Source: Pseudomonas viridiflava
GTDB taxonomy: Bacteria; Pseudomonadota; Gammaproteobacteria; Pseudomonadales; Pseudomonadaceae
Assembly (NCBI RefSeq): GCF_900589395.1
Contig: NZ_UUIS01000027.1
Coordinates: forward strand, 317,002 to 381,001
Reading direction: 5' to 3'
DNA length: 64,000 bases
A program made the position numbers and the translations under genes. The notes under the pieces are model-generated. The model had not been told where the DNA came from, searched no databases, and saw only the letters and a program-made list of their open reading frames with translations. Below are positions 58 through 6,331 of this stretch, in pieces; within the stretch, counting starts at the first letter, position 1; each line of letters opens with the position of its first letter.

Positions 58-1308
58 TCAATCCCAGCTCAACGCGCCGCCCGTCTGATACTCGATCACG
101 CGGGTCTCGAAGAAGTTTTTCTCCTTCTTGAGGTCCATGATCTCGCTCATCCACGGGAACGGGTTGGTGGTGCCTGGGTATTCTTCCTTCAGGCCGATCT
201 GGGTCAGGCGGCGGTTGGCGATGAACTTGAGGTAGTCCTCCATCATCGCCGCGTTCATGCCCAGTACGCCGCGCGGCATGGTGTCGCGTGCGTATTCGAT
301 TTCCAGCTGGGTGCCTTGCAGGATCATCTGCTGGGCTTCTTCCTTCATGTCGGCGTCCCACAGGTGCGGGTTTTCGATCTTGATCTGGTTGATCACGTCG
401 ATGCCGAAGTTCAGGTGCATGGATTCGTCGCGCAGGATGTACTGGAACTGCTCGGCCACGCCGGTCATCTTGTTGCGGCGACCCATCGACAGGATCTGGG
501 TGAAGCCGCAGTAGAAGAAGATGCCTTCGAGCACGCAGTAGTAGGCGATCAGGTTGCGCAGCAGTTCCTTGTCGGTCTCGACCGTGCCGGTCTTGAATTC
601 CGGGTCGGAGATCGAACGGGTGTATTTCAGGCCCCAGGCGGCTTTCTTCGCGACCGACGGGATCTCGTGGTACATGTTGAAGATCTCGCCTTCATCCATG
701 GCCAGCGATTCGATGCAGTACTGGTAGGCGTGGGTGTGGATCGCCTCTTCGAAGGCCTGGCGCAGGATGTACTGGCGGCACTCCGGGTTGGTGATCAGGC
801 GGTACACGGCCAGCACCAGGTTGTTGGCCACCAGCGAGTCGGCGGTGGAGAAGAAGCCCAGGTTGCGCAGCACGATGCGACGCTCGTCGTCGGTCAGGCC
901 TTCAGGGTCTTTCCACAGGGCGATGTCGGCGGTCATGTTGACCTCTTGCGGCATCCAGTGGTTGGCGCAGCCGTCGAGGTATTTCTGCCAGGCCCAGTCG
1001 TACTTGAAGGGCACCAGCTGGTTGAGGTCGGCACGGCAGTTGATCATGCGCTTCTCGTCGACCGCAACGCGGGCCGAGGCGCCTTCCAGTTCAGCCAGGC
1101 CTTCAGCGACATCCAGGGCGTCCAGGGCTTGCTTGGCGCGGATCAGGGCAGCCGAGTCGGCGGCGGTGACAGCGCGCGCTTCCTTGGCCGCCGCACCACC
1201 GGCGCTGTCGAGGCGGTCCATGGCCGCTTCGTGTGCCTGGGCGGCCTGGTTGGGCTTGGCGGCGATGACTTCGCCGTCGTCCTTGTCGAATTCGTCCCAG
1301 CTCAGCAT
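58..1308 (-). CDS. nrdB: Ribonucleoside-diphosphate reductase subunit beta (class Ia)
   Basis: Small, radical-bearing subunit of the cytosolic class Ia ribonucleotide reductase, which with NrdA reduces NDPs to dNDPs. The 416-residue protein carries the two E-x-x-H metal-ligand motifs of the family ([11 protein letters not shown] and [12 protein letters not shown]), and the conserved [19 protein letters not shown] block. The first 70 or so residues are the Ala-rich N-terminal extension common in Pseudomonas NrdB. The start has AGGAG about 10 bases upstream. It is transcribed in the same direction as nrdA but separated from it by a fic/antitoxin pair, and has its own upstream region with paired NrdR-like boxes. 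A terminator follows directly. Confidence 0.97.
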
Positions 1309-1935
1309 GGGGGTGTATCTCCTGCGTGAGGGTCACCTTGAGAGTGACCGATGGATTTTGAAGTAGGCGCTGCCAACGTTGCGGTGCTGCTGGCTGGCAA
1401 CGGAAATAGGTCGAGTAATCTCGTGTTTTCTAAGGTGTTGGATCCGCGAGGCTGTGCATGTAGTCCAGGACGCTGCGATGCTGGCAGAGGCAAATGATCC
1501 TGGCGCCCGAATAGGGCTTGAGTTCAGATGAGCCGGTATTGCGTACATGACTGGTCATATGAGTACCCCGGATCGAGGGCGCGGATTATACAGAATATTG
1601 CACCGCACTGCCCTAGTCGTTCAGAAAAACAACCCATGAAAATGGTCTGCTTTTACACGCTTGCAAAGTGATTTTTTCTATGAAGGAAAACCACATTATC
1701 TTGCGTAAAAAGGGTCCATATTGTGTTTCTTTTTGATTCAAGGCACAACATATAGTTCGTGAGGGTTTTCACATTGCTGCGTTCATCGCAAGGATTCTGA
1801 CCACGAAAAAGCAAGGTCGTTCTGATCCTGATCAAGGCTGCAGGCCTTGAATAGGTTGCGGGTACGTCCATTTTTCGTGGCGAAAATAATTGACGTACAG
1901 GCTTCAATGATGACCTTGGCAAGCGACGAATGGCG
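1309..1935 (-). promoter_or_regulatory. nrdB upstream region with tandem NrdR-like boxes
   Basis: A 627-base stretch without a convincing gene. Two 16-mers resemble the NrdR consensus ACACWATATATWGTGT: AGGGTCCATATTGTGT (1711-1726, 11/16, right half perfect) and GCACAACATATAGTTC (1743-1758, 12/16). They start exactly 32 bp apart, three helical turns, the spacing known for NrdR box pairs. On the minus strand a GATAAT hexamer (1700-1695) lies just downstream of the boxes and a perfect TATAAT (1590-1585) lies further on, so one or two nrdB promoters are likely, with a 5' leader of 270-390 nt. The part around 1640-1830 is markedly AT-rich. Box assignment is inference from the consensus. Confidence 0.6.
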
Positions 1936-2532
1936 TCAGCGCAAGGACTGTCCGATGCACCGTTCGAACACGGTACGCATGGTGCTGTAATCACATACCA
2001 CTGAATCGATATTCGCTTGGGTCCAGTGGTCGATGTCAACCTTCCACCAGTCGATTTCGTAGCCTGCGTTGACAATGATGTGCTCAAACAGAATACGCTG
2101 GGATCGACCATTACCCTCACTAAACGGATGCACCATGTTCAGGTCGCCGAACAGCTCTGAAACGGCATTGATCAACGCTGGGCGACTCAAGCCTTCAAGC
2201 CAACTGGCATGCTCCAGTGCGCTAAACAGCTTGGTAGCCTCCGGCTGTATGCGTGATACGGTGCAAAAATGCGTCGTTGCCTTGGAAATATCGACCGTGC
2301 GCAATACGCCAGCCCAATCGTACAGGTCTGAAAACAAACGCTGATGAATGCCTTGAAGGTAGCCGAGATCATAAGGCGGCAGAGCAAATTCGATAGTATC
2401 GGCGGCCAGCTCTGACAGCGCCCGCTCGGCTTGCATCAGCGTCAGGTCGTTTCTGATACCGAGTCGATTGCGTAGCACTTGAGTATCGGGATAGCAGTAA
2501 GGGTCTTGGCCCGTACCGTATTTATCCAGCAT
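1936..2532 (-). CDS. fic: Fic-family AMP transferase (toxin)
   Basis: Adenylyltransferase of the Fic family, which moves AMP from ATP onto a hydroxyl side chain of a target protein. The 198-residue protein has the complete active-site motif HPFSEGNGRSQR at residues 135-146 with catalytic His135, so it should be active. No inhibitory helix is visible inside it, as expected for class I Fic proteins held in check by a separate antitoxin. That antitoxin lies immediately upstream, and its stop overlaps the fic start (TGATG). Known relatives include E. coli Fic/YhfG and P. fluorescens Fic-1/AntF, the latter reported to modify GyrB. The gene looks lower in GC than its neighbours and sits between nrdA and nrdB, suggesting acquisition. 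Confidence 0.92.
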   Translation of the reverse strand: MLDKYGTGQDPYCYPDTQVLRNRLGIRNDLTLMQAERALSELAADTIEFALPPYDLGYLQGIHQRLFSDLYDWAGVLRTVDISKATTHFCTVSRIQPEATKLFSALEHASWLEGLSRPALINAVSELFGDLNMVHPFSEGNGRSQRILFEHIIVNAGYEIDWWKVDIDHWTQANIDSVVCDYSTMRTVFERCIGQSLR

Positions 2533-2702
2533 CAGATTTTTTCGACACGATAGATTTTCAGTAATTGCTCGCGGCTCAGGCGTGGACGCTCTGCATCGGA
2601 TGGCGTGGTGTCAAAACCCTCCAGTCGCAGACTGGCCGCATAATTGGATTTTCGGGTTTTGGCGCAATAAGCCTTCTTGGCTTGCAGGGAGGGCGTGGTC
2701 AT
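2532..2702 (-). CDS. yhfG: YhfG-type antitoxin of the Fic toxin
   Basis: A 56-residue basic protein, MTTPSLQAKKAYCAKTRKSN at its start, resembling YhfG/AntF. Residues 24-29 read SLRLEG, which fits the [S/T]xxxE[G/N] inhibitory motif by which class I antitoxins place a glutamate (here Glu28) in the ATP site of the Fic partner. The stop codon overlaps the fic start by one base, so translation of toxin and antitoxin is coupled with the antitoxin first. A weak GAGG lies upstream of the ATG. The similarity to YhfG is judged by eye from length, motif and position. Confidence 0.85.
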   Translation of the reverse strand: MTTPSLQAKKAYCAKTRKSNYAASLRLEGFDTTPSDAERPRLSREQLLKIYRVEKI

Positions 2703-2764: not shown

Positions 2765-2802
2765 AAAAAAGCCCGGCTGTTTCATAAGAAACGAGCCGGG
2801 CC
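2765..2802 (-). terminator. Rho-independent terminator of nrdA
   Basis: GCCCGGCT and AGCCGGGC arms enclose a 15-base loop; on the minus strand the stem is followed by a run of Ts. It lies between the nrdA stop and the antitoxin start, so nrdA should be transcriptionally separate from yhfG-fic. Confidence 0.85.
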
Positions 2803-2824
2803 TACAAGGGTCAAGCCGCTTGCC

Positions 2825-5740
<2,916 letters not shown>

Positions 5741-6331
5741 GGGGGTCTCCACAGTCTTTGAGTAGTTCGGGCAATTACTGCCCACCGTGCCGGTTGTTAC
5801 CGGCTTGAGGAGGGTTGGGTGCCGCTCCCCGGCCTGGAAAATCAAAGGCACCGGGTTGGGCCCGGTGCCTGGAATCATTTGAAGAGTGCCCGCCGGTCAT
5901 TGCAGAACGTACGTGGGGGGTTCTGCGCTCCAGCCTTTCGCGCGAGCGATTGGTCTGTGAAACCGGTGGTAAGTTCAACCCCGCTATCGTGATAAAAGGG
6001 CTTGAAAAGGGGCCCGATAGTGTGATCGTGTTTTTACGCCAAAACCCTACATCTAGGGTCTGGGTCGCCAAGGGGCTACAAGATAATGCGTTTGCTGCAT
6101 CAGTTCAATGTCACACTTTGCCGCTGCCTGTGGATAGCTTGTGAGTAAAGCTGTGCATGATTGGCCCCCAGCCCGCGGAACCTATGGGCGAGCTGTGCCC
6201 GGCAGTTTTTTTGTATCGGTCCGACGAACTGACGCTGATTTTTGCGGGCGCGAACCCTATCACAGAATTTCCAATGTGCAAGGATGATCTGGCGTGTTTC
6301 GTGCATAGTGCAGCGGCCAAAAAGGAGTCTC
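5741..6331 (-). promoter_or_regulatory. nrdA/fhuF intergenic region with NrdR-like and DnaA-like boxes
   Basis: A 591-base region between divergent nrdA and fhuF-like genes. NrdR-like boxes ACCCTACATCTAGGGT (6044-6059, 12/16) and CTACAAGATAATGCGT (6076-6091, 11/16) start exactly 32 bp apart. Three sequences one mismatch from the inverted DnaA box TGTGNATAA follow at 6129 (TGTGGATAG), 6140 (TGTGAGTAA) and 6152 (TGTGCATGA), spaced 11-12 bp so that they face the same side of the helix. E. coli nrdAB is controlled by DnaA and NrdR, which supports the reading. No clear Fur box was seen for the fhuF-like gene. Confidence 0.6.
5838..5869 (-). terminator. Attenuator-like hairpin in the nrdA leader
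   Basis: GGCACCGGG and CCCGGTGCC (5847-5855 and 5861-5869) form a perfect 9-bp stem with a 5-base loop. On the minus strand the stem is followed by TTTGATTTT, giving the look of an intrinsic terminator about 110 nt before the nrdA start. Whether it attenuates transcription is not known. Confidence 0.45.

Follow-up and report, generated by a model that had tools for sequence, protein, structure and literature searches.

In our reading, positions 6044-6091 of the window (the whole 64,000-nucleotide stretch of Pseudomonas viridiflava DNA analyzed here) are the NrdR operator of nrdA, and nrdB would form a separate unit with NrdR sites of its own, an arrangement that would keep nrdB, or another copy of the gene, under this one dNTP-sensing repressor; we put the probability of this reading at roughly 85%. 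The genes were identified with NCBIfam and Pfam models, the source genome being an assembly of 6.19 Mb in 96 contigs, and those concerned here all lie on the minus strand. The class I ribonucleotide reductase (RNR) alpha subunit with its ATP-cone is encoded by nrdA at 2825..5740 (NF005544, 1797 bits; PF03477 in two stretches, PF00317, and PF02867), directly 3' of which an intrinsic terminator hairpin is found at 2769..2803, also on the minus strand (70-nt fold of -31.5 kcal/mol, z -3.2; hairpin -24.7), with a T run after it. Then come yhfG, a gene for a YhfG-family antitoxin, at 2535..2702 (PF10832, 63.9 bits), fic, a gene for a Fic-family adenylyltransferase, at 1936..2532 (NF007672, 183.4 bits against a cut-off of 181; PF02661), and nrdB, which encodes the class I RNR beta subunit, at 58..1308 (NF005550, 715 bits). 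A single match to nrdB, the only copy found, occurs in its own genome, where we found neither NrdD nor a separate NrdJ, the NrdJ model matching nrdA alone and below the cut-off; thus, NrdAB is the only RNR found.

The nrdA operator consists of two 16-mers on the minus strand, box 1 (ACGCATTATCTTGTAG on the coding strand) at 6076..6091 and box 2 (ACCCTAGATGTAGGGT on the coding strand) at 6044..6059. The earlier note had proposed a pair of NrdR boxes at exactly these places with starts 32 bp apart, which is about three helix turns, and the matrix scan that it suggested gave 13.7 bits for box 2 and 12.9 bits for box 1. The matrix is palindromic with 16 positions, was trained on sequences upstream of nrdA from 48 non-Pseudomonas loci, and was seeded with what we take to be the NrdR consensus of the NrdR literature. 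Four sites in the 64-kb window scored above 9.4 bits, namely 1691 (14.9), 1743 (14.8), 6044 (13.7), and 6076 (12.9), the fifth-ranked site having 9.4 bits, and the sum of 26.6 for the 6044/6076 pair was the highest in the window at offsets of 30-33. In 60 Markov-1 sequences of 64 kb, the best pairs had a mean of 10.4 and a maximum of 19.1, and the best single sites a mean of 12.6 and a maximum of 18.6. The nrdA pair therefore exceeds chance, unlike any single score, and because a single 12-bit site is not rare (0.70 per simulated 64 kb), the weight rests on the pair and on its conservation.

This conservation is extensive, as a pair with a sum of at least 18 was found upstream of nrdA in 31 of 32 Pseudomonas-group loci, at an offset of 31 (21 loci) or 32 (10 loci), the one exception being the Stutzerimonas locus L024 with a sum of 17.8. 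Six named genomes in which nrdB matched more than once (L007, L008, L009, L011, L027, and L067) also keep the pair, and by reading, C4 and G13 are conserved in both boxes. Reading of the sequence also places a -10 hexamer, TATCTT, within box 1 at 6080..6085 and a -35 hexamer, TTGAAC, at 6103..6108, 17 bp from the -10 (both on the minus strand), and in most of the 32 aligned nrdA loci a TTG hexamer is likewise followed 17 bp on by TATCTT within box 1. A consensus promoter and terminator scan of the window returned nothing at either nrd promoter and missed the nrdA terminator hairpin; it yielded 2 promoter-like sites against 1.8 in shuffles and 6 terminator-like sites against 5.0. The nrdA leader also contains a strong hairpin at 5846-5870 (-21.7 kcal/mol over 51 nt, z -5.0), which is perhaps an attenuator-like structure.

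The repressor itself, a protein with a Zn-ribbon and an ATP-cone, is encoded in the same genome (TIGR00244, 235.6 bits, model positions 1-147 of 147), and by reading it has C3/C6, C31/C34, D15, R17, and R26-29; D15, R17, and an RRRR motif are named as DNA contacts of NrdR in the accessible text of PMC9110341. Matrix score, conservation, promoter overlap, and the encoded NrdR together back the identification of the nrdA sites as NrdR boxes, and 6044-6091 is, as far as sequence can tell, a standard NrdR operator. NrdR loaded with ATP and dATP would bind both boxes as a tetramer and kink the promoter, a mechanism shown for other NrdRs that we infer here, and since box 1 contains the -10, bound NrdR would block RNA polymerase. 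As NrdR binding here is a prediction, the palindromes might instead serve another regulator or a DNA structure, but this is very improbable, because 16-bp palindromes with C4 and G13, a spacing of 31-32 bp, and overlap with the -10 match the NrdR operators published in the available portions of PMC9110341, PMC12051234, and PMC4409342.

The sites at nrdB resemble this arrangement only in part. On the minus strand, nrdB has one full box, box 1 (GAACTATATGTTGTGC), at 1743..1758 (14.8 bits), a degenerate box 2 at 1711..1726 at an offset of 32 with a strong left half (ACACAATAT) and a poor right half (12.3 and -8.4 bits), and a further full box (ACGCAAGATAATGTGG) at 1691..1706 (14.9 bits), which lies at 52 bp from box 1 and at 20 bp from 1711 and is missing from the sister genome G201 (L170). 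By reading, C4 and G13 are present in the boxes at 1743 and 1691, and the site at 1711 lacks one of them. The geometry at the two genes had been described as identical; a 32-bp pair, 1711/1743, does exist at nrdB, but 1711 is a half-site, the strong partner at 1691 lies 52 bp away, and the nrdB spacings of relatives are 31-34 or 42 bp, so that the geometry is similar rather than identical. The sum of 18.7 for the 1711/1743 pair is inside the simulation range; a 31-32 bp nrdB pair also occurs in four relatives (L083, L087, L097, and L102; sums 18.3-23.4), and a left half like that of 1711 occurs in relatives with such a pair. By eye, we found no good -35 before nrdB box 1 in the window. The long nrdB leader also contains a TATAAT-like element at 1585-1590, about 100 bp downstream of the boxes, and such an element recurs at aligned places in L083, L087, L097, L170, and L266.

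One could argue that the nrdA pair does work as an NrdR operator, but that the nrdB sites of the window are relics or chance palindromes, with nrdB driven mainly by another promoter, which would fit the half-site nature of the 32-bp partner, the TATAAT-like element at 1585-1590, and the loss of 1691 in the sister genome G201. We consider this quite unlikely, since no other site in the 64 kb scores as high as the two strong nrdB sites, and since in relatives the nrdB boxes follow the distance to nrdA and have spacings near whole helix turns. We classified the nrdB leaders of 190 unique loci (213 scanned, 23 duplicates dropped), keeping those that had an N-terminal match and at least 600 bp upstream and counting a site as a box from 11 bits upwards; 97 regions were picked from among the matches listed, so that nrdB genes like that of the window are over-represented in these counts. 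Not one of 41 nrdB genes with nrdA within 520 bp (short gap) had a box, which was present in all 18 loci with a mid-sized gap of 585-1600 bp (the window included), in 5/5 fic-split loci (fic present, nrdA out of reach), and in 75 of 95 distant loci (nrdA likewise out of reach, but fic lacking). Altogether, 98 of 118 extended loci carry a box, with the named first copies of genomes with two left out of this count. The nrdB boxes are spaced by 31 or 32 bp in the mid-gap and fic-split loci and by 31-34 bp in second nrdB copies. In 71 of the 75 distant loci with a box, a right half-site of at least 3 bits lies exactly 42 bp upstream (the next offset has 18 loci, the median is 0); it is a weak half-site, reaching 6 bits in 1/75, and since the distant loci are related, the 71 cases should not be taken as independent events. 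The nrdB spacings are thus near three or four whole helix turns, and in the accessible text of PMC12051234 several NrdRs cope in vitro with boxes four turns apart.

These counts also bear on the origin of the nrdB sites. Outgroup nrdB leaders, usable in 37 of 48 outgroup loci, had no box in any case (0/37), and together with 0/41 among the short-gap leaders, this makes an operon without nrdB boxes the simplest ancestral state. The idea that the split genes kept ancestral nrdB boxes is rejected on the same two counts. The suggestion that the split genes had kept or gained parallel control was thus borne out and is decided in favor of gain, so that the NrdR control of nrdB appears from these leaders to have been gained rather than kept. 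Under our preferred reading, the nrdA transcript would end in its own terminator and nrdB, beyond yhfG-fic, would be transcribed separately under NrdR sites of its own; in the relatives examined, nrdB would have sites of this kind where the transcript from nrdA no longer runs on into it and none where the two genes are close, and nrdB or its second copy would thereby stay responsive to the same dNTP-sensing repressor as nrdA. We infer that separate control of nrdB may serve the balance of alpha and beta subunits.

A terminator after nrdA, for which we required a T run after a hairpin no weaker than -12 kcal/mol, was found in 15 of 18 mid-gap loci and in all 13 named distant loci, against 6 of 41 short-gap loci, the distant class being represented here by 13 of 15 named loci whose nrdB falls outside the locus. 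With the extended or split loci pooled (28/31), a terminator after nrdA accompanies the split of the genes. At L269, where the gap is 622 bp, a hairpin and repeat-like sequence lie between nrdA and the boxes and no gene was seen by eye, so that transcriptional separation may not need cargo. A 42-aa open reading frame in the L266 gap had no Pfam match. In the window, the gap between nrdA and nrdB is 1309-2824, and this interval, judged from G018, G019, G010, G029, G102, and others, looks like an insertion hotspot.

The association between gap and boxes recurs on a tree of gyrB for which 60 of the 79 genomes were chosen to cover the classes, and which requires at least 14 changes of gap class and 16 of box state. 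Among 11 independent pairs differing in gap class, 10.8 on average agreed in box state and none was opposite (median p 0.00098), although part of this tree association is mechanical, since the promoter itself lengthens the gap. The short and mid-gap classes alone gave 7/7 (p 0.0156), and without the mid-gap class the 5 remaining pairs gave p 0.0625, which reflects low power; the direction of the association is consistent across the pair tests. A different explanation of the link is that the sites function, but that a mobile or recombining segment carrying promoter and boxes separated the genes and spread, with no selection for co-control. It would fit the wide range of nrdA-nrdB distances (0.2 to 441 kb overall), the 14 changes of gap class on the tree, and the alternation of short and long intergenic forms between close relatives. 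The gap sizes fall at about 1.5-1.7 kb with yhfG-fic, 4-6 kb, about 40-100 kb, 105-139 kb, and 441 kb, and in single-contig cases nrdA and nrdB are on the same strand and in order. However, the boxes vary between groups in sequence, in spacing (three or four turns), and in distance to the ATG, and the operator of second nrdB copies is compact and of another kind, so we hold a mobile segment to be unlikely; as it concerns origin, it is compatible with our explanation of function.

The 20 boxless distant loci are largely accounted for by genomes with more than one nrdB. Sixteen of them belong to genomes with a further nrdB, and the other four, G144 (L113), G247 (L123), G168 (L242), and G184 (L259), have no second nrdB among the matches listed; a shortened palindrome remains at the box position in L123 and L259. 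Among the 75 distant loci with a box, by contrast, more than one nrdB match was seen, by eye and among the matches listed, in four genomes (G034, G102, G167, and G207), where the extra matches are pieces of one gene (G034) or short C-terminal fragments (G102, G167, and G207). These C-terminal fragments sit near nrdB. A partial second nrdB 3' end (residues ~310-416, with an internal stop) also lies 3' of nrdB in G022 (L087, 3431-3751).

In genomes with two nrdB genes, the first copy had a box in none of 16 cases. The second copies that were first examined had one in 15/15, a count that is circular because they had been sorted by hand after their scores were seen. As a test, nrdA and the second nrdB were then located in the 16 genomes behind the boxless distant loci, whose second copies had been unseen before, and 16/16 had a strong pair (sums 33.0-33.6, at -119 to -188); one of these copies (G104) has an internal stop and another (G249) matches from residue 14 on. 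In 23 two-copy genomes with nrdA and nrdB on one contig, that nrdB, or the nearer one, is on the strand of nrdA and boxless; this placement leaves out G195, G147, G231, G188, G210/G064, G062, G063, and G006, and for G087 it is deduced from the length of the contig only. The operator of the second copies is compact, with the strongest box starting at -113 to -210, and 15 aligned copies have two or three box-like palindromes, the first of which overlaps, by reading, a TTGACC-17-TATAGT promoter. Second nrdB genes with a compact conserved operator were observed at L143, L145, L147, L148, L150, L152, L155, L157, L159, and L184, and further ones at L219, L231, L244, L253, L255, and L342-L357. Because these operators are nearly identical, they may reflect one inherited duplication rather than many events. 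The two copies, compared in nine genomes, are 86-100% identical per 155-nt bin and 81-91% identical in the first bin, at the 5' end, and their near-identity outside the first bin suggests gene conversion between the nrdB copies.

Taken over all boxless split nrdB loci, 32 of 36 are in genomes with a further nrdB, so that one beta gene there seems to be free of NrdR. We lean, by a modest degree, towards a Pseudomonas rule in which at least one nrdB stays under NrdR: where the operon is broken, nrdB would gain an operator, and where a second nrdB exists elsewhere, the operator would be on that copy and the copy on the nrdA side would be without one, which would give the cell one NrdR-repressed and one NrdR-free beta subunit that are nearly identical. 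The rule is strengthened by the boxes in 16/16 of the predicted second copies, and the four boxless single-copy loci count against it.

Not all of the upstream control of nrdA is mirrored at nrdB. A site with one mismatch to TTATCCACA, which we take to be the DnaA-box consensus and on which we base the term DnaA-box-like, lies upstream of nrdA at 6129..6137 on the minus strand (CTATCCACA), and such a site (at most one mismatch) was present upstream of nrdA in 29/32 loci, compared with 4% of random 500-nt stretches of the window. Upstream of nrdB, it was found in 3/41 short-gap, 2/18 mid-gap, 2/95 distant, and 0/5 fic-split loci, and in 0/16 first and 0/15 second copies. On this rarity we reject the idea that all control was duplicated at nrdB; once the genes are split, NrdR would be common to both of them, but the DnaA-box-like site would not.

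The nrdA operator agrees well with known systems. In P. aeruginosa, each RNR promoter has two NrdR boxes with box 1 overlapping the -10 (PMC4409342, accessible text), as at nrdA in the window. The same text lists nrdA and nrdB with a positive fold change in an nrdR mutant, but as one operon, nrdAB, whereas nrdB of the window would be a separate unit with its own boxes. The box pairs of E. coli, S. coelicolor, L. monocytogenes, and S. pneumoniae are alike in having 16-bp palindromes with a 15-16 bp spacer; some NrdR pairs are one helix turn wider (24-27 bp), and some regions have three or four boxes (PMC9110341, PMC12176259, PMC12051234). Those four species differ in that their sites serve whole RNR operons, and separate subunit operators are not described in the available portions of these three papers. 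A proteobacterial survey predicted 186 NrdR regulons and placed NrdR among the most conserved regulatory interactions (PMC5343134); its main text does not contain "nrdB" or "nrdAB", and its tables, like RegPrecise, may list separate nrdB sites. In the open-licence literature, we found no report of split nrdA/nrdB genes with separate NrdR sites or of two nrdB copies in Pseudomonas.

Taken alone, the nrdA operator is ordinary, and it is the wider pattern of nrdA and nrdB that amounts to a rewiring experiment performed by nature. Close and separated arrangements of these two genes, which together encode an essential enzyme, recur, and in the separated state the second gene or its copy has its own site for the same repressor, with spacings of three or four helix turns. 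This makes it testable whether selection acts on the subunit ratio or only keeps RNR under dNTP feedback, and the genomes with two nrdB genes offer a ready-made comparison for that question.
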